From NCBI GenBank assembly GCA_030012235.1, contig JASCXY010000007.1, positions 1 to 36,753 on the forward strand: a DNA stretch of 36,753 nt. Reading direction: 5' to 3'. The stretch comes from Balneolaceae bacterium ANBcel3. Lineage in GTDB: Bacteria; Bacteroidota; Rhodothermia; Balneolales; Natronogracilivirgulaceae. Both the position numbers and the translations under genes were made by a program. Of the stretch, positions 7,688 to 23,213 are shown piece after piece (position 1 is the first letter of the stretch; each line of letters opens with the position of its first letter). A model generated the notes under the pieces. It did no database searches. It was not told where the DNA came from and saw only the letters and a list, made by a program, of their open reading frames with translations.

Positions 7688-9097
7688 TCAGCCCTTAAAA
7701 TACGCTTTGGCATTGTAATAGCACAGCCGTTGTACCAGCGAGCCGATGAGAGGTTCATCGGCAGGAAGTATGCCTGATTCCACATCGGATCCCAGCATAT
7801 TGCACAGGATCCTGCGATAGTATTCATGTCGCGGAAACGATAAAAAGCTTCTGGAGTCGGTCACCATACCCACAAAATGGCTCAAAAGCCCCATATTTGA
7901 CAAGGTTTGCAGCTGCTCCTCCATCCCCTCTTTCTGATCATGGAACCACCATGCCGGTCCATACTGAATTCTGCCCGGTATACCGTGCCCCATAAAATTA
8001 CCGGCCATGGTTGCTATCACGGCATTGTCTGCCGGATTCAGATTATATAAAATGGTCCTTGGCAGAGCGCCTTTCGACTCCATCTGGTCAAGAAACCGGG
8101 CCAATGGACGTGCAACCGGCGCGTCTCCGATCGAATCACACCCAATATCGGCTCCTATCTCACGAAAAGCCCGTGAATTTGTGTTTCTGATGGCTCCCAG
8201 ATGCATTTGAAAGACCATGTCTTTTTCAGCATCCATTGCTGCGAAGGCATACATCAACCCTGATTTCAAAACAGCGACTTCATCCGCTGTAAGTTCATTG
8301 CCCTCCTGAACCTTTCTGAATAAGCGGTTAAGCTGTTCTTCGTCCACTTTTTCGGCATAGAGTTCTTCCATCCCGTGATCGGATGCCCGGCAGCCCAGAC
8401 TGGAAAACATATCATGGCGCTGTTTCAATGCTTTTACATAGGACGGGTAATCGGTAATGGCAACACCGCTCATTTCCGATATCATGCGGACATACCGGCC
8501 AAAACTCGCGGAATCTTCCACCGCCATCGCTTTATCCGGACGAAAGGTTGGAAGCATAACCGGTGTCGTCGAATCGCTGTTTTCTTTGCGATACTTTTCA
8601 TGATATTCAAGGCTGTCCGCGGCATCATCGGTGGTACCTATCAATTCAACGCTTTGCTTTTTTAGCAGTTCCCTGGAAGAAAACTCAGGCGAACGGAGCA
8701 TTTCGCATGTCTGATCCCAGATTTTCTCCGCATTTTCCTCACTTAACCGCTCATCTATGCCAAAGTAACGCTTAAGTTCCAGATGCGTCCAGTGATACAA
8801 TGGGTTTTTAAGCGTCAGCGGAACCGTTTTTGCCCAGGCCAGAAATTTATCCTTGTCCGATGCCTTTCCGGTAATAAAGTCTTCTTCCACCCCGGCGGCA
8901 CGCATGGCCCGCCATTTGTAGTGATCGCCCTGAAGCCACACATGGGTGATATTCTCATACATGGTATTTTCACACACTTCTTTCGGGGAAAGGTGATTGT
9001 GAAAATCAATGATCGGCAACTCCCTGGCATATTCATGATACAGTTTTTTTGCCGTATCGGACTGCAGCAGAAAATCGTCATGTATAAAAGGCTTCAT
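7688..9097 (-). CDS. uxaC: Glucuronate isomerase
   Basis: A 469-residue uronate isomerase converting D-glucuronate to D-fructuronate (and galacturonate to tagaturonate), the first step of hexuronate catabolism in the cytoplasm. The amidohydrolase-fold metal motif DFHNH is at residues 31-35, followed by LSPKEV. GIPGRIQYGPAWWFHD, VTDSRSFLSFPRHEYYRR and the C-terminal CYYNAKAYF are family landmarks. Length is normal for UxaC. It is the last gene of the uronate cluster, 21 bases after kdgK, so the two are almost certainly co-transcribed. No clear terminator was found after it. Confidence 0.95.
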   Translation of the reverse strand: MKPFIHDDFLLQSDTAKKLYHEYARELPIIDFHNHLSPKEVCENTMYENITHVWLQGDHYKWRAMRAAGVEEDFITGKASDKDKFLAWAKTVPLTLKNPLYHWTHLELKRYFGIDERLSEENAEKIWDQTCEMLRSPEFSSRELLKKQSVELIGTTDDAADSLEYHEKYRKENSDSTTPVMLPTFRPDKAMAVEDSASFGRYVRMISEMSGVAITDYPSYVKALKQRHDMFSSLGCRASDHGMEELYAEKVDEEQLNRLFRKVQEGNELTADEVAVLKSGLMYAFAAMDAEKDMVFQMHLGAIRNTNSRAFREIGADIGCDSIGDAPVARPLARFLDQMESKGALPRTILYNLNPADNAVIATMAGNFMGHGIPGRIQYGPAWWFHDQKEGMEEQLQTLSNMGLLSHFVGMVTDSRSFLSFPRHEYYRRILCNMLGSDVESGILPADEPLIGSLVQRLCYYNAKAYFKG

Positions 9098-9118
9098 AAT
9101 GGGCTTCTTTGATGTTTT

Positions 9119-10150
9119 TTACCTTTCCACGCGCCCGGATCCGCCACCGGCCATCAGCTTCTCCACTTCCTCCCGGCTCACCAGGTTAAAATCCCCATGA
9201 ATGGTATGCTTCAGGCACGAAGCGGCAACCGCAAAGGCCAGGGCATCTTTGGAGTTTTCGTAGGACATCAGCCCGCAAATTAGGCCGGAAGCAAACGAAT
9301 CCCCGCCTCCCACACGATCAACAATAGAGATGTCATAGCGGTCTGAACGTACCGGCTCCGAGCAGTCTCCTTCGTCATGGAGCATGGCACTCCAGCCGTT
9401 CCGGCTGGCCGAATAACTCTCCCGCAGTGTAATGGCAACCGTAGAAAAGGAATACTCTTTCCGAATCGCTTCAGCGAGCCTTTTGTAGCCTTCCTCATCC
9501 AGCTCAGCCGACTCCACATTGGTTTTTCCGGCATCAAAACCCAGACTTTTCTGCACATCTTCCTCATTGGCAATGCACACATCTACGTATTCCATCAGGG
9601 GGTTCATCACCGACTGAGCCTTCTTCTCAGTCCACAGTTTCTTTCTGAAATTCAGGTCGCAGCTCACCGTCGCCCCGGCTTTTTTTGCCTCCTTACACGC
9701 TTCGATCAGGCATTGAGTGGCATTTTCACCCAAAGCCGGCGTAATACCCGTCCAGTGAAACCAATCGGCATGTTCAAATACCTTTGCCCAGTCGACCATA
9801 TCGGGAGTCATCTGAGTAACCGCGGAATCCGCCCGGTCATAGATCACCTTGGAAGCCCGCTGACTGGCTCCTGTTTCAAGGTAATAAATACCAACACGAT
9901 CGCCTCCGCGCACAATATAATCCGTTTTTACACCAAACCGGCGCAGCGAATTTACGGCCGACTGACCGATTTCATGTCCGGGAAGACGTGTCACAAAATG
10001 GCTGTCATATCCGTAGTTGGCAAGCGATACCGCGACATTGGCTTCACCTCCTCCATACGTTGCTTCAAACGAATCGGCCTGAACAAATCTTTGAAACCCA
10101 GGAGTGGCCAGGCGGAGCATAATTTCTCCAAAAGTGACTGTTTTTTTCAT
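9119..10150 (-). CDS. kdgK: 2-keto-3-deoxygluconate kinase
   Basis: A 343-residue PfkB/ribokinase-family sugar kinase that phosphorylates 2-keto-3-deoxy-D-gluconate to KDPG with ATP. The N-terminal PfkB signature GGGEANVA is at 33-40, and the second signature DRVGGGDSFASG begins at 278 with the catalytic base Asp284. The start at 10150 is chosen because MKKTVTFGEIMLRL is the usual beginning for the family; a frame from 10186 would add twelve residues. A short ORF with a strong ribosome binding site lies just upstream, so translation may be coupled. Its place between kdgA and uxaC fixes the pathway. Confidence 0.93.
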   Translation of the reverse strand: MKKTVTFGEIMLRLATPGFQRFVQADSFEATYGGGEANVAVSLANYGYDSHFVTRLPGHEIGQSAVNSLRRFGVKTDYIVRGGDRVGIYYLETGASQRASKVIYDRADSAVTQMTPDMVDWAKVFEHADWFHWTGITPALGENATQCLIEACKEAKKAGATVSCDLNFRKKLWTEKKAQSVMNPLMEYVDVCIANEEDVQKSLGFDAGKTNVESAELDEEGYKRLAEAIRKEYSFSTVAITLRESYSASRNGWSAMLHDEGDCSEPVRSDRYDISIVDRVGGGDSFASGLICGLMSYENSKDALAFAVAASCLKHTIHGDFNLVSREEVEKLMAGGGSGRVER

Positions 10151-10169
10151 GGTTCTTTTTCTTTCACAT

Positions 10170-10226
10170 TCATAAATGCTGCCCATATGCAGCCGGCAGC
10201 CTGTTTAATAAAAATATTCTATACAT
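10170..10226 (-). CDS. Possible 18-residue leader peptide upstream of kdgK
   Basis: On the minus strand GGAGGAG is followed after five bases by an ATG at 10226 and an 18-codon frame (MYRIFLLNRLPAAYGQHL) ending in TGA at 10170. The ribosome binding site is better than that of kdgK itself. A second mini-frame (MNVKEKEP) begins at the TGA and its stop overlaps the kdgK ATG as ATGA. The arrangement could couple or attenuate kdgK translation. It could equally be chance, because such short frames cannot be scored by composition. Confidence 0.35.
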   Translation of the reverse strand: MYRIFLLNRLPAAYGQHL

Positions 10227-10237
10227 GACAACTCCTC

Positions 10238-10274
10238 CGGCAGGTATTCAGAAGAACAACGTTCTTATCTGCCG
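10238..10274 (-). promoter_or_regulatory. Nested hairpin in the kdgA-kdgK spacer
   Basis: CGGCAG (10238-10243) pairs with CTGCCG (10269-10274), enclosing AAGAAC (10252-10257) paired with GTTCTT (10261-10266) around a three-base loop. It lies immediately upstream of the GGAGGAG of the leader ORF on the transcript. There is no T-run, so it is not an ordinary terminator. It may be an RNA-processing or mRNA-stability element, or control access to the ribosome binding site. Confidence 0.4.
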
Positions 10275-10300
10275 AAAACAGAGGATCGTCAAGGAAACAC

Positions 10301-10951
10301 TCAGCCTTCCTCCATATATCTCCGGACGGCCTCGTGCAACGCTTTGGCATTATCCCGAATGATATCAAAACGCCGGTTTTTAATCGCTTTCATATCCACC
10401 AACGCGCTTCCGACTCCCAGTGCGACCGATCCTGCACGCAACCAGTCACTCACATTGTCCACGTGTACCCCTCCGGTGGGAAGAAGCTTCAAATGAGGCA
10501 TTGGAGCCCGTACCCCTTTGATATACGAGGGACCCAGGGTATCGGCCGGAAATACTTTTACCACGTCGCTTCCATACTCCCATGCGGTCTGGATTTCTGT
10601 CGGTGTATAGGATCCAACCGAAACGGCTTTGTCGTACGAGTGCGCGGTATCGATGATTTCTTTTTTCAGGATAGGGCTGACAATAAAAGACGCTCCGGCT
10701 TCCGCGACCTGTCTGGCCATCTCCGCATTAAGGACCGAACCGATACCAAAAACCATCTGATCCCCTACCCGGTCTATCAGGCGGGGTACATAGTCCAGCA
10801 AACCGGGGATGGTCATCGTGGCTTCAATAATAGTAACACCGCCTTCCAGCAGAGCATCTACTACAGGATCCAGTTCTTCCGGATCATTTACCCGGATAAT
10901 CGCAACCAGTTTGTCCTCTTCAATTCGACGAAGGGTTTCTTTTCTTTGCAT
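10301..10951 (-). CDS. kdgA: 2-dehydro-3-deoxy-phosphogluconate (KDPG) aldolase
   Basis: A 216-residue class I aldolase splitting KDPG into pyruvate and glyceraldehyde-3-phosphate, the last step of the uronate pathway. The Schiff-base lysine is Lys132 in VVKVFPAD, and the general acid/base Glu43 sits in IIEATMTIP. GIGSVLN (69-75) and LLPTGGV are phosphate-binding loops of the family. Length is standard. A TATAAT-like hexamer lies about 16 bases upstream of the ATG, so the gene may have its own promoter in addition to read-through from uxuA. The spacer to uxuA is 258 bp. Confidence 0.94.
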   Translation of the reverse strand: MQRKETLRRIEEDKLVAIIRVNDPEELDPVVDALLEGGVTIIEATMTIPGLLDYVPRLIDRVGDQMVFGIGSVLNAEMARQVAEAGASFIVSPILKKEIIDTAHSYDKAVSVGSYTPTEIQTAWEYGSDVVKVFPADTLGPSYIKGVRAPMPHLKLLPTGGVHVDNVSDWLRAGSVALGVGSALVDMKAIKNRRFDIIRDNAKALHEAVRRYMEEG

Positions 10952-10977
10952 TATGATTCAATTATACTGTTTTCCGG

Positions 10978-10994
10978 AACAACCGCATCAAACA
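10978..10994 (+). repeat. 17-bp dispersed repeat, copy 2, in the upstream region of kdgA
   Basis: Exact copy of the 17-mer at 7554-7570, here without the rest of the attC-like structure. Read on the minus strand it falls near where a -35 element for the TATAAT-like hexamer of kdgA would be. A shared regulatory site is therefore one alternative to a fragment of a mobile recombination site. Confidence 0.45.
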
Positions 10995-11209
10995 TACCGC
11001 ATCTTTTGAGATAGTTTCTGCCGCTGCCATCGATGGTGGACAGAATCAACGTGCGTATATGATGAACGGAAACCGGCGATTTCTACCTCTGTACCCTATT
11101 GTGTACAAAACCTCATAAAACTTCGCCCGGCGCGCAACTTTCCGCGCTATCTTGTCAAATATTGCCCGTCATTCTGTAAATTTTGCTCTAATATACAAAA
11201 AGCAACGCA

Positions 11210-12406
11210 TCATGCCAAAGAGCGCAGAATGCCCATTTCCAGCCCACGTAACTCCGCCAGTCCGCGTAATCTTCCAATGGCGCTATACCCGGGGTTGGTT
11301 GTTTTATCCAGATCGTCCAGCATTTTATGGCCATGATCGGGTCTCATGGGAATCGACCGTTCCCGGTACTGCTGCTCGAGAAGCATCGCCTTCATCACTG
11401 CATACATATCCACATCGCCATCCAGGTGATCGGCCTCATAAAAACTCCCGTCTTCGGTTCTTCTGGTACTTCTCAGATGCAAAAACCCAACCTTTGGAGC
11501 CAGTTCTTCGACCATGGTCACCAGGTTGTTTTCAGGGATTACGCCAAAGGAACCGGTACAGAAACAAAGCTGGTTGGATGGTGACGGAACCGCTTGCAGT
11601 AACGCGCGCGCATCTTCCAGTGTACTCATGATCCGGGGAAGACCAAAAAGAGAAAACGGCGGATCATCGGGATGAATCGTCATGGTTATCCCGGCGTCTT
11701 CAGCAACCCCTGCAATTTCACCTACAAAATGGATAAGATGCTCTCTCAAGGCCTCTTCTCCGACATCCTTATAGGTCCGGAGTGCTTCCCGGAACGTATC
11801 CAGGCTCCAGGCTTCTTCCGCGCCCGGCAATCCGGCCAATACCGTGTTCTGGAGATAGGCGATATCTTGTTCGGAGGCCTGACTCATCCAATCCGAAGCG
11901 CGTTTCAGCTCCTCTTTGCTGTACTCCTCTTCGGCTCCGGAGCGCTTCAGAATAGTGGTATCAAAAGCGATATAAGCGGTTTTGTCAAAGTACAAAGCCG
12001 TTGAACCGTCATCCATAAGCCTGTTCAAATCCGTCCGGGTCCAGTCCAGTACCGGCATAAAATTGTAACAAACGGTTTGAATCCCGCATTTCCCGAGATT
12101 GACCAGTGTTTTTTTATAATTTTCAATGCGGGTATTATATGCGCCCGACCGGGTTTTTATCTCCTCGTGCACCGGTACACTTTCCACTACCGACCAGCGC
12201 AGGCCTTCTTTTTCTATGGCGGCCTGATGTTTTTTGATCTCTTCAACCGGCCATAACTCTCCATTCGGAATATGGTGCAGAGCACTTACGATACCGGTAG
12301 CTCCGGCCTGGCGAATATGTGAAAGCGGCACCGGATCCGACGGACCAAACCATCTCCAGGTTTGTTCCAGCCTTTTTTTGTCATTGTAATACGAAGCGTT
12401 CATCAT
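11210..12406 (-). CDS. uxuA: Mannonate dehydratase
   Basis: A 398-residue UxuA-family enzyme dehydrating D-mannonate to 2-keto-3-deoxygluconate, with a TIM-barrel fold and a divalent metal. Landmarks are the opening [20 protein letters not shown], the metal-site segments [19 protein letters not shown] and GFLHLRST, and MRPDHGH near the C-terminus. Length matches the E. coli enzyme (about 394). Two ATG codons begin the frame; the first is listed, and the difference is one residue. The SDR gene ends 33 bases upstream, indicating an operon. Confidence 0.95.
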
Positions 12407-12439
12407 GGTTTTGAAATAAATACGTTGATATAAAAGCCG

Positions 12440-13276
12440 TCAGACACCGCTGAATGCAGAAAATCCACCGTCTACAGGTATTACGGCTCCATGCACAAAT
12501 TTGGTTTCCGGAGCGGTGAGCCACATCACCGTAGAAACCAGGTCCTCCGGCTGACCAAATCGTCCGGCGGGGGTGTGATCAATAATTCTCTTTCCTCTGT
12601 CCGTTAACGTTCCATCCTTTTGTTTTGTCAAAAGAAAACGGTTCTGTTCGGTCAAAAGAAAGCCGGGAGCAATGGCATTAACCCGGATGTCCGGGGAATA
12701 ATTTTGAGCCATATGAACCGCCAGCCATTGCGTAAAATTACTAACGGCGGCTTTTGCCGAAGAATAGGCCGGGATATTCGTGAGCGGCGTAAAGGCGTTC
12801 ATTGACGAAATATTGATAATATTCCCGGATTTCTGTTGGACAAACTGTTTGCCAAATACCTGGCAGGCATAAAACGTCCCCATGAAATTCAGGTCAAAGA
12901 CAAACCGCATCCCTTCATCTGTAATTTCAAAAAAAGAACGGTCTTTTGTCGTGGTTGCTTCCGGTTTATTCCCTCCTGCACCGTTGATGAGAATATCGAC
13001 CTTGCCAAAACGTTCGATGATACGGTCAGACGCGTCTGCCAGTGCCTCCTTTTCCAGTACGCTTGCCCGAATCATGATATGTTCAACATCGAGACGGCTC
13101 AATTGTTCAGCCAGGCTATCCATGGCCTGTTGGCCGACATCAATAACAGCGATCGATGCTCCGGCTTTTCCCATAGCTACAGCCATTTCAGAACATAATA
13201 CACCGGCACCACCGGTAATAACCGCGACCTTCCCCTTCAGGGGCTGCTTCTGTTTCAAGGTTGTTGTATCCGCCAT
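12440..13276 (-). CDS. SDR-type D-fructuronate reductase / D-mannonate oxidoreductase
   Basis: A 278-residue short-chain dehydrogenase that should reduce D-fructuronate to D-mannonate, linking UxaC to UxuA. TGGAGVLC at 21-28 is the nucleotide loop; its last Gly is Cys, a variant common in this subgroup. The catalytic set is Asn130, Ser158, Tyr171 and Lys175 (YSSAK). NAIAPGFLLTEQNR is typical of SDR mannonate oxidoreductases. The start at 13276 is preferred over 13288 because AGGAGA overlaps the first ATG and is well spaced for the second. It is not homologous to the long-chain UxuB of E. coli; the function rests on subgroup resemblance and position. Confidence 0.85.
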   Translation of the reverse strand: MADTTTLKQKQPLKGKVAVITGGAGVLCSEMAVAMGKAGASIAVIDVGQQAMDSLAEQLSRLDVEHIMIRASVLEKEALADASDRIIERFGKVDILINGAGGNKPEATTTKDRSFFEITDEGMRFVFDLNFMGTFYACQVFGKQFVQQKSGNIINISSMNAFTPLTNIPAYSSAKAAVSNFTQWLAVHMAQNYSPDIRVNAIAPGFLLTEQNRFLLTKQKDGTLTDRGKRIIDHTPAGRFGQPEDLVSTVMWLTAPETKFVHGAVIPVDGGFSAFSGV

Positions 13277-13351
13277 CGTTCTCCTCATTTTTCGCTGAAT
13301 TCATAAAGCCGGGGCCTCCGATTCTTATGCCCGAGCTCATTTAATTATAAA

Positions 13352-20418: not shown

Positions 20419-20458
20419 GCATGGAGAAACCTTTAACCGGTTTCTCCATGCTTTTTTT
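20419..20458 (+). terminator. Strong rho-independent terminator after the HiPIP gene
   Basis: GCATGGAGAAACC (20419-20431) pairs perfectly with 20439-20451 around a seven-base loop, followed by seven T residues. It also sits at the end of the convergent potassium channel gene, whose stop begins at 20457. Confidence 0.93.
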
Positions 20459-22208
20459 ACGTCCGGGAGGGCTCTTTTAGGCGCTGAAGGAAAAACTGTC
20501 GCCGTACTTCAGTCGGTTTTCCTTCCCCGTAATATTTCCAGAATTTCTTTTCGGCCTCAAGGGTTCCGATCAAAATAATTTTCTGATTCTTATCCATGAC
20601 GAAAGCGGGATCCAGGTTCAGCAGCGTTTCGTCTTTCTTCTCAATGCCCACGATGGTACATCCGGTGGTATTACGCACATCCAGGTCCGATATTTTTTTA
20701 CCTACCATCTTTTGCGGCATATGCATTTTGAAGACATTGAGTCCCTCGTCCAGCATCACCATCTCCCCCTTTTGCAGATAGTTAAAAATGGCATTAGCTC
20801 CCATAGTGGAATAGGATAACGTAAAGTCTGCTCCCGCGCGTCGCAGTGTCCCCAGGTTGCGATCCATCTTAACACGTGAGATAATCTGTAATTCAGGATG
20901 TAATCGTCGGCAATATAACGTCAGATAGATATTATTATCGTCCTGGTTTGGAGTAATAATAACGGTATGGGCTTTTTCAATCCCTGCTTGACGCAGCATA
21001 GTCAGATCAGCCGCATCTCCCTTTACCTGAAGCTTTTTAAAGGCTGACGGCATAGGCCTTTTCTCAATAATCCGGAATGGGATTTTGCGTTCTGCCAGAG
21101 CCTTTCCAACCGACTGACCAACTCTTCCACCGCCAATAACAACTACGGCTTCGTCACTTGCCCGGTAAATCCCCAGTAACTCATCGTACTTTCTCAGGCT
21201 TTCAACGGTTCCGACCATTACAAGAATGCTCTTTTCATGAACGATGGAGTCTGCTTTAGCAATATTGAATCCTCCACGTTCCCAGATTCCTACGATATTC
21301 ACTCCGGTTATTTCCCTGAGCTTTGTTTCGGCAAGTGTTTTTCCCACCAACGGGGTATCCAGAGCCGGAGCTTCCGCAATGACCAATTCCTGAAAACGGC
21401 CGATAACATGCACCCGCGCGCTTCCTCCCACAACCCTCCTTGCCAGTGCCTGTCCCATCATTTCTGAAAGATTCAGTACAAAATCACTTCCGGCGAGCTT
21501 CAGAATATCCACCGCCTCATCGTTGCTGGTAAAAGAGACCACCGGTACCGATTCGCTCAGTTCCCGTACCGTAAAAGCCACGTTGGTATTCACCCGTTCA
21601 TTATCATTGGCAACCACCATAGCGGCTTTGTCAACGCGCACATTTCTCCAGGTCTGAGGATCATCCACATGTCCGTGTACCACATCATACCCAAGGTCGC
21701 TTACTTCCAGAGCTTCATTAAGATCCGATATAAGCAACGTGTACTCATAGTCAAAGGCCTTGAGTTTTTCTATTAAAGCTACGGCAACGGCATTATACCG
21801 GGTCAGGATAATATGGTTTTTGGTTTCATAAGGAAGCGTTTTGGGCGCCCGGGCCTGCGCCTGTGCTTCCAGCCATGGGGCATAAAAAAACTGAATGAAG
21901 GTAAAGGGCAGCATCACCAGCAAAAAAACCACTCCTGAAAACAAAACCACTGACGAGAAAAGCCTGCCAAGATCCGAGGTAAAAACGATATCGCCAAACC
22001 CAAGCGTTGACATGGTCACCAGTGTCCAGTACAACCCTGAAATCCAGCTGTGTTCTTGTCCCTCCAGCTGGCTTATGATCTGAAAAAGAAAAGTATACAA
22101 AAGAATTACGCCCACTAATACCAATGAAAAAAGAATGAGCCTCTTCAGGTTTGTACGAGTCGATTTTTTCTGAAATAAAAAACTTAACTCTGAAACTAAA
22201 AATTTCAT
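20457..22208 (-). CDS. Potassium channel protein with two tandem RCK (TrkA-N/TrkA-C) modules
   Basis: A 583-residue ion channel subunit. Two transmembrane helices (about 22-46 and 84-108) flank a pore loop with the K+ filter TLGFGD at 68-73. RCK1 spans about 131-340; its nucleotide loop reads ILTRYNAVA, lacking the GxGxxG glycines, so it is probably unable to bind nucleotide normally. RCK2 (about 353-575) has an intact GGGRVG loop and an acidic residue at the end of the second strand (IIEKRP), suiting NAD(H) or nucleotide binding. Tandem RCK pairs in one chain form a gating ring from four subunits. It is divergent from the deiodinase-like gene. Confidence 0.88.
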   Translation of the reverse strand: MKFLVSELSFLFQKKSTRTNLKRLILFSLVLVGVILLYTFLFQIISQLEGQEHSWISGLYWTLVTMSTLGFGDIVFTSDLGRLFSSVVLFSGVVFLLVMLPFTFIQFFYAPWLEAQAQARAPKTLPYETKNHIILTRYNAVAVALIEKLKAFDYEYTLLISDLNEALEVSDLGYDVVHGHVDDPQTWRNVRVDKAAMVVANDNERVNTNVAFTVRELSESVPVVSFTSNDEAVDILKLAGSDFVLNLSEMMGQALARRVVGGSARVHVIGRFQELVIAEAPALDTPLVGKTLAETKLREITGVNIVGIWERGGFNIAKADSIVHEKSILVMVGTVESLRKYDELLGIYRASDEAVVVIGGGRVGQSVGKALAERKIPFRIIEKRPMPSAFKKLQVKGDAADLTMLRQAGIEKAHTVIITPNQDDNNIYLTLYCRRLHPELQIISRVKMDRNLGTLRRAGADFTLSYSTMGANAIFNYLQKGEMVMLDEGLNVFKMHMPQKMVGKKISDLDVRNTTGCTIVGIEKKDETLLNLDPAFVMDKNQKIILIGTLEAEKKFWKYYGEGKPTEVRRQFFLQRLKEPSRT

Positions 22209-22544
22209 TATTAATATCGTGTATGTACTCTTTTACGAACCCTCAGATACGATTCCTGTCACATCTTCGTTCCCTTTTCAAGTAGGTAAAATACGGATAA
22301 TTCTGACGACTGCTATAGCCTAAAATAGAAATGGAGAAACCATCTTAGAACTCCTTTTAAAGAAGCGGCGTTTATAGTGTTTGATTTTATAAAGCAGACA
22401 TCGGACTCCATGGTTTAAAAGAATCCAACATAGATAGATGCACAAAATTGCCAGGCTTTTGGTTCTACTTTTTTTTACCATATCTTAACAGACAGCCCGG
22501 CTACACCTTTTGTATTTTTAAGTATTTTGCGTTTAAAAAGACTC
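22209..22544. other. Divergent spacer between potassium channel and deiodinase-like genes
   Basis: About 335 bases with no supported gene. It must hold both promoters. TTTTGTATTTTTAAG lies 20-40 bases before the ATG at 22545 and is a plausible promoter region, but no pair of elements could be fixed. No repeats or strong hairpins were seen. Confidence 0.4.
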
Positions 22545-23213
22545 ATGAATAAAAGCATTAGCTATCAACCTCTTTCCTATGAAAAACCTTCGAAAGAGGA
22601 ACTCCTGAAGAGATCGGAAGCCTTTCTTGATCTGATGAAAAAAAGGCGCACCGTACGCGAATTTTCCCCCGAGCCGGTTCCCGATGAAGTGATTTTAAAC
22701 TGCATTGAAGCTGCAGGTACCGCACCTTCCGGAGCACATCTTCAACCCTGGCATTTCGTCGTCGTAAAGAATCGTGAAATAAAAAAAGAGATCCGGGAAG
22801 CGGCCGAGCATGAGGAACGTATAAATTATGAAATGCGGTTTTCGGAAAATATGAAACAGGATATCGCTATGCTGGAGACCAATTTTCAAAAACCGTTTCT
22901 AGAAGCGGCACCCGTTTTGATAGCCGTTTTCAAAGAATCTTATCGGATCGATGACCATCAGGTTCGCAGGAAAAATTATTATGTTAATGAATCGGTTGGA
23001 ATTGCTACGGGGCTTTTGATTACCGCACTTCATTATGCTGGCCTGGTTGCATTACCGCATACTCCAAGCCCAATGAGATTTTTAAATAAAATCCTCAACC
23101 GGCCTGCCAATGAAACGCCGGTCATCTTGTTCCCTGTTGGTTATCCAAAAGAGGATACCACCGTTCCGGAGCTTCATCGTAAGCCACTGGAAGAGATTGT
23201 CACCCGTTTCTGA
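22545..23213 (+). CDS. Iodotyrosine deiodinase-like FMN flavoprotein (nitroreductase fold)
   Basis: A 222-residue member of the nitroreductase fold, closest by eye to iodotyrosine deiodinase (IYD), which reductively removes halogen from halotyrosines using FMN. RRTVREF opens the FMN site, and GTAPSGAHLQPWHFVVVK is nearly the IYD signature. The residues that clamp the iodotyrosine zwitterion in human IYD (Glu157, Tyr161, Lys182) are matched in identity and spacing by Glu91, Tyr95 and Lys116. The Thr that hydrogen-bonds FMN N5 (Thr239 in human) is matched by Thr173 before Pro. The C-terminus (LFPVGYPKEDTTVPEL) also fits. The start is the ATG at 22545; the TTG at 22527 is less likely. Real substrates in this organism are unknown. 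Confidence 0.85.
   Translation: MNKSISYQPLSYEKPSKEELLKRSEAFLDLMKKRRTVREFSPEPVPDEVILNCIEAAGTAPSGAHLQPWHFVVVKNREIKKEIREAAEHEERINYEMRFSENMKQDIAMLETNFQKPFLEAAPVLIAVFKESYRIDDHQVRRKNYYVNESVGIATGLLITALHYAGLVALPHTPSPMRFLNKILNRPANETPVILFPVGYPKEDTTVPELHRKPLEEIVTRF

Follow-up and report, generated by a model that had tools for sequence, protein, structure and literature searches.

The gene at positions 22545 to 23213 of the window (the whole stretch of 36,753 nucleotides that was analyzed) raises two questions: whether it encodes an iodotyrosine deiodinase (IYD) or another protein of the nitroreductase fold, and whether its product serves halotyrosines or some other phenol. The frame is single and intact, running from ATG 22545 to the stop at 23213, and frame 1 of the opposite strand is interrupted by stops over the same interval (Table 1). 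The next in-frame start on the 5' side is TTG 22527, which would add six codons. The host genome, 3.2 Mb in 490 contigs, holds three matches to the Pfam nitroreductase family (PF00881). One is the window protein itself, with 100.9 bits against a cutoff of 23.5, and the other two share 26% and 17% identity with it and are without the Glu-Tyr-Lys triad that clamps the substrate in IYD. The nearest named relative returned by the scan is the Balneolales MAG SLKA01000089.1, with 75% identity in the IYD protein; the "CSSed" in its name presumably denotes soda-lake sediment.

TABLE 1 Features of the window and of related loci (window positions unless a locus is named)
Feature	Location	Strand	Remarks
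IYD-type FMN nitroreductase-fold protein, 222 aa	22545..23213	+	Triad E91/Y95/K116, T173-P174
Smr-domain protein, 104 aa	23241..23555	+	PF01713; 27 bp downstream of IYD
K+ channel, Ion_trans_2 plus two TrkA_N/TrkA_C (RCK) units	20457..22208	-	Pfam; divergent neighbor of IYD
Divergent intergenic region channel/IYD, 336 bp	22209..22544	.	
Permease-IYD loci	L027, L131, L136, L154, L155, L158, L164, L166, L170		
S46 peptidase just upstream of permease-IYD	L154:6765-8606, L155:6777-8528	-	
Chorismate mutase-prephenate dehydrogenase	L070:11129-12262	-	This copy scanned

Among PDB sequences, the best match (phmmer) was the IYD of Haliscomenobacter hydrossis (HhIYD; E value, 2e-65), followed by mouse and human IYD with two sequences each (3e-55 to 4e-54), which together make up the top five distinct sequences. 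After these came the IYD 6pz0 (1e-28) and then other nitroreductases from 4.5e-18 onward. The window protein has amino acid identities of 52.7% to HhIYD, 46.1% to mouse IYD, and 44.9% to human IYD. Residues 4 to 106 align without gaps with residues 40 to 142 of the human IYD chain 4ttb, and K116 precedes the first gap of the next block. In this alignment E91, Y95, and K116 pair with human E157, Y161, and K182. The structural alignment, in which model residue 5 equals residue 71 of 4ttc, has an offset of 66 and leads to the same three residues and to T239; a PDB entry titled as a human IYD Thr239 mutant is among the structural matches.

The T173-P174 pair aligns with the Thr-Pro of HhIYD, mouse IYD, and human IYD. 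In PMC3930498, T235 of mouse IYD is given as an FMN contact, together with R96, R97, S98, R100, P123, S124, and R275. The corresponding positions of the window protein are R34, R35, T36, R38, P61, S62, and R212, with T36 replacing mouse Ser98, as a Thr likewise does in HhIYD. We compared 122 IYD loci, of which 24 lie on named contigs spanning several phyla and 98 come from the window and genomes of its phylum, with at least two contigs counted twice (L023/L053 and L031/L101). The triad is present in all 122. It is missing from four nitroreductases outside IYD, taken from the window's genome and from two others of its family; in two of these four proteins the Glu and Tyr columns are gaps. The T173 column holds Thr in 120 loci and Ser in 2, and the P174 column holds Pro in all 122. 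As a separate observation, the column of S62, a flavin-contact position, has 84 Ser and 37 Asn residues among the 122 loci, perhaps marking two subgroups.

An AF2 monomer model built from 22 sequences has a mean pLDDT of 92.2. When it was compared with the PDB (VIA-align), the first 12 rows were all IYDs, with Z scores from 27.4 to 23.2. The best of them are halotyrosine-bound forms (4ttc, 3gh8, 5yak, 3tnz, and 5ko8) spanning nearly the whole model, and 4ttc, 3gh8, and 5ko8 reach a Z score of about 27 over 217 to 219 residues. The first rows outside IYD are 3of4 (Z, 19.1) and BluB (Z, 19.0). Model residues 4 and 5 align with mouse residue 66 and human residue 71, and the animal-type N-terminal anchor is absent.

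BluB (5,6-dimethylbenzimidazole synthase) was ruled out as an identity, the window protein scoring 84.6 bits with the NCBIfam model TIGR02476 against a cutoff of 150, and an ordinary nitroreductase was ruled out by the PDB sequence ranking, the triad, and the fold ranking. In a quick tree of 56 of the 122 IYD rows, with 6PZ0 and BluB left out, HhIYD and the animal IYDs fall among the bacterial rows; its outgroup branches are too long for safe rooting, and the best root misplaces two of the four outgroup rows. The earlier note, made from the sequence alone, had called the protein a bacterial IYD homologue with the full clamping triad plus a Thr-Pro, had put the triad at the spacing of human IYD, and had held that these residues separate IYDs from ordinary nitroreductases. 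The PDB matches, the alignment, and the predicted fold bear out this identification, the residues are where they were read, the spacings of 4 and 21 agree in the alignment that runs ungapped across the triad, and the separation was complete in the proteins compared. By sequence, the window protein lies closer to characterized IYDs than to other nitroreductases, and the predicted structure matches IYD entries first. Membership in IYD thus holds for the features examined in the sequence and in the modeled fold. On these grounds we consider it likely that the window gene encodes an ordinary soluble bacterial IYD, a sort of enzyme that is already known and for which structures exist. It is related to the thyroid enzyme with which humans remove iodine from tyrosine.

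IYD is a homodimer sharing two active sites. By analogy with IYDs of known structure, the window protein would be homodimeric, with FMN bound by the R-R-T-x-R and P-S motifs, and a lid of about residues 88 to 116 would cover the halotyrosine that E91, Y95, and K116 hold. With T173 beside the flavin N5, the enzyme would then convert 3-halotyrosine to tyrosine by reductive loss of iodide or bromide, perhaps of chloride. It is from characterized IYDs that we infer FMN and substrate binding, this chemistry, and the halide range. The most likely role of such an enzyme would be the detoxification and salvage of halotyrosines that are freed from peptides or imported as amino acids, with usable tyrosine being returned.

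The presence of an IYD in this genome is unsurprising, as the gene is common in the group. Families are referred to here by working labels (f1, f2, f3, etc.), f1 being the family of the window. IYD was found in 15 of the 20 f1 genomes searched, including the window's own; in 84 of 128 genomes of the order; and in 123 of 392 sampled genomes of the phylum (completeness of at least 90%; E value, ≤1e-30). Within the order, 44 of the 128 genomes, some of them incomplete, have no match at an E value of ≤1e-30, and in the f2 genome G033 three stop codons break the IYD frame (G033:C12:246651-247262). Both observations would suit a weakly selected remnant gene for which this organism has no halogen substrate. 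To that reading we give hardly any credence, since IYD was matched at the same threshold in 59 of the 83 genomes of good quality in the order (counting the broken copy of G033) and the active site is invariant in the IYD loci read.

We examined gene neighborhoods in 165 loci, 162 with IYD and three others chosen for their K+ genes. In 9 of the 162, an APC permease lies directly upstream of IYD on the same strand, with gaps of -32 to 116 bp; in L027 and L170 the permease is cut by the contig end, and only its end is present. These loci belong to 7 of the 14 f25 genomes with IYD, to 1 of 2 such f43 genomes, and to the named contig L027. The permease is an APC protein fused to EIIA and TrkA_C (RCK_C) domains, and its best NCBIfam match, below the cutoff, is the subfamily "amino acid transporter." Among its PDB matches, cationic, L-type, and what we take to be GkApcT-like amino acid transporters rank first, and the K-Cl and Na-K-Cl cotransporters, which share the superfamily, are far below. 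We had considered whether it could resemble KimA, presumably a K+ importer, and with amino acid transporters leading the list this idea found no support; KimA is absent among the 60 of 69 PDB matches listed.

With two permease candidates scored per genome, the ten best matches among the 392 genomes are all in genomes with IYD, and seven of them adjoin it. IYD was found in 56 of 66 permease-bearing genomes, 10 being without it, versus 67 of the 326 others (Fisher P value, 3e-23, uncorrected for kinship). When the window's order is set aside, IYD is present in 23 of 30 genomes with the permease. The window's genome has no close copy of this permease (E value, ≤1e-150; two of three candidates scored), and none of the permease or peptidase partners is present at the window's locus.

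In two loci, an S46 peptidase gene precedes permease-IYD (Table 1), giving a row that could possibly lead from peptide through amino acid to dehalogenation. One permease-IYD locus includes a TonB receptor gene, and in one IYD is followed by an M28 peptidase. An M24 peptidase lies directly upstream of IYD in all eight f10 genomes with IYD, one representative having been scanned with Pfam. Among a hand-picked 115 of the 181 neighbor proteins, many f2 and f10 repeats having been left out, no Pfam family occurs in more than three, and the neighbors are lineage specific. This speaks against a single pathway, as does the lack of these direct partners at the window's own locus.

Several further arrangements were seen. 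In two f25 loci (L121:3682-7924 and L132:3655-7927), a TonB receptor stands directly before IYD, followed by an ATP-grasp-like protein; the best NCBIfam match of the L121 receptor is ZnuD, far under the cutoff. A gene of the ornithine cyclodeaminase/mu-crystallin family follows permease-IYD in L158 (4754-5740, plus strand); vertebrate mu-crystallin binds thyroid hormone. In nine loci, f2 loci such as L070, a chorismate mutase-prephenate dehydrogenase of tyrosine synthesis lies no more than five genes from IYD.

That halotyrosines are taken up and dehalogenated is favored because a permease lies directly upstream of IYD in nine loci and a peptidase does so in eight others. Counting against this are the absence of such partners from the window's locus and of a close permease copy from its genome at the threshold given, the 10 permease-bearing genomes without IYD, and the lineage-specific neighbors. 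The earlier note had left it open whether the protein acts on another phenol. Its true substrate might indeed be a different ortho-halogenated or nitrated phenol, or the protein might be a general flavin or nitro reductase, with the triad kept by descent. The title of PDB entry 5krd, which describes HhIYD with 2-iodophenol bound, speaks for this, as does the window's genome, where neither a halotyrosine source nor an HPPD match was found. We nevertheless regard it as unlikely. The triad is invariant in 122 of 122 loci, other phyla included, and free phenols should not need it; moreover, the permease and peptidase partners in other families lean toward halotyrosines over a free phenol. From the context in those families we infer that the enzyme's substrate in the cell is a halogenated amino acid in free form, imported or released from peptides. 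A role in detoxification or salvage is suggested more weakly by the same gene pairs (permease-IYD, S46 peptidase-permease-IYD, and M24 peptidase-IYD). In the open-access literature searched, a scope that leaves the primary bacterial IYD papers outside, we found no physiological role or operon described for a bacterial IYD. The permease-IYD and peptidase-permease-IYD rows offer a handle on the role, and halotyrosine uptake with dehalogenation is directly testable.

At the window's locus itself, the earlier note had seen no obvious halogen pathway next door, and this stood, with no halogen-related family among the ten neighboring proteins scanned. A search of the window's genome for the tryptophan halogenase family PF04820 gave no match; together with the lack of HPPD, this is weak evidence that fits salvage or detoxification better than tyrosine breakdown by the homogentisate route, though both negatives also count against a halotyrosine role. 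The Smr gene downstream is possibly cotranscribed with IYD. A scan for promoters and terminators gave nothing above shuffles; sigma-70-type sites between 22150 and 23700 were no exception, and none fell within the divergent intergenic region. On the other side of that region, the K+ channel has as its best PDB match 4gx5, a "TrkA domain protein" (E value, 4e-119), and we take it to be GsuK-like. Beside the channel lies a high-potential iron-sulfur protein gene (PF01355; 20044-20388, plus strand), relatives of which occur near the channel in eight loci of the family, the window included. Farther off, positions 7688 to 13288 hold what by eye we take to be a hexuronate breakdown row (glucuronate isomerase, KDG kinase, KDPG aldolase, mannonate dehydratase, and a short-chain dehydrogenase).

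The channel invites a different reading, in which IYD, as a redox flavoprotein, would sense NAD(P)H and tune a neighboring K+ channel or TrkAH. The flavoprotein KefF serves KefC. SUP-18, the Caenorhabditis elegans orthologue of IYD, activates the K2P K+ channel SUP-9 and appears to need catalytic activity to do so (genetics in PMC3930498). In f1, neighborhoods were compared in 13 genomes (the window and L047 to L058), with neighbor counts resting on frames chosen with homology weighting. The channel is the direct divergent neighbor of IYD in nine of them (the window, G017, G001, G009, G003, G007, G012, G005, and G014; in G003 the two are separated by a called frame of 82 residues). TrkA and TrkH genes stand between channel and IYD in G018, where the trkH-IYD gap is 131 bp, and trkA-trkH-IYD is also consecutive on one G006 contig. 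In G011 and G008, trkH immediately precedes IYD close to where the contig stops, and the channel is found close to the end of a different contig. All four f1 TrkH genes (E value, ≤1e-40) are directly upstream of IYD. In G002, the IYD contig contains neither channel nor trkH. G006 has two versions of the locus, one in which trkAH separates channel and IYD and one in which it does not (contigs C10 and C130; L149 and L150), reflecting either mixed strains or a duplication. In f3, G113 has acyltransferase-trkA-trkH-IYD and G116 and G114 have acyltransferase-IYD, G114 with trkAH elsewhere; in G113, trkAH may have come to lie ahead of IYD independently, for a second time.

The channel pair does not stand out, however, since Smr, on the opposite flank of IYD, is retained just as well and gene order as a whole tends to be preserved. 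Smr is the direct downstream neighbor in 11 of the 13 f1 genomes (in G014 the contig ends there), and the adjacency of channel and IYD is conserved to no greater degree than local gene order in general, with no clear excess over the f1 background. The pair most simply arose by loss of the trkAH genes that are still between its members in G018 and one G006 contig, and for these reasons we rejected it as proof of function. Channel and TrkAH also occur together without IYD in f2 (G062) and f4 (G123), and so the cluster exists independently. Several f2 genomes carry IYD and the channel on one contig at a distance of 14 to more than 90 kb. Sixteen of the 20 f1 genomes have no TrkH at an E value of ≤1e-40, and 11 of those 16 have IYD. 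In IYD loci outside f1 and f3, neither TrkH, TrkA, nor the channel was found (blastp E value, ≤1e-8; flanks of up to 6 kb per side, often cut by contig ends). A redox-sensing IYD of this kind is accordingly very unlikely in our judgment, and the more specific proposal for f1 and f3, in which IYD in a K+ locus of channel, TrkA, TrkH, and IYD would be an FMN/NAD(P)H-dependent regulator of RCK-gated K+ transport, is more doubtful still. We retain a functional K+ link among the readings because SUP-18 activates SUP-9, apparently by way of its catalytic activity. If it were true, the SUP-18/SUP-9 link would be an old property of the IYD protein family and testable in bacteria, and the K+ locus of the window's family offers a handle on whether the nematode link is ancient. 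The f25 and f43 permease also carries TrkA_C (RCK_C), and the common partner could be RCK_C-bearing transporters generally. In the open-access literature searched, with most subscription papers outside its scope, we found no bacterial IYD row with a permease or K+ locus described.

As an IYD, the window protein has close counterparts among known systems. Its nearest is HhIYD (PDB 5KO7, 5KO8, and 5KRD), from a different bacterium, with 53% identity, the triad and Thr aligned without offset (query 10 to 216 with chain 10 to 216), and a Z score of 27.2 over 217 residues to the iodotyrosine-bound form. The annotated IYD 6PZ0, which we take to be from Thermotoga, is more distant (Z, 24.6), with a shorter chain and 37% identity over 183 residues. 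BluB and ordinary nitroreductases share the PF00881 fold, but their Z scores are at most 19.1 in the rows listed, and the nitroreductases compared (four) have no triad. Human and mouse IYD (4TTC, 3GH8, and 3TNZ) share the triad and fold at 45 to 46% identity and Z scores of 27.3 to 27.4; in contrast to these animal enzymes with their N-terminal membrane anchor, the window protein has none and starts at about mouse residue 63 to 66. C. elegans SUP-18 is an IYD orthologue whose K+ channel link comes from genetics, whereas the link at the window's locus is one of gene adjacency. IYD is described as occurring from mammals to bacteria (PMC13078365) and Iyd as a specialized subgroup of its superfamily (PMC6017928).
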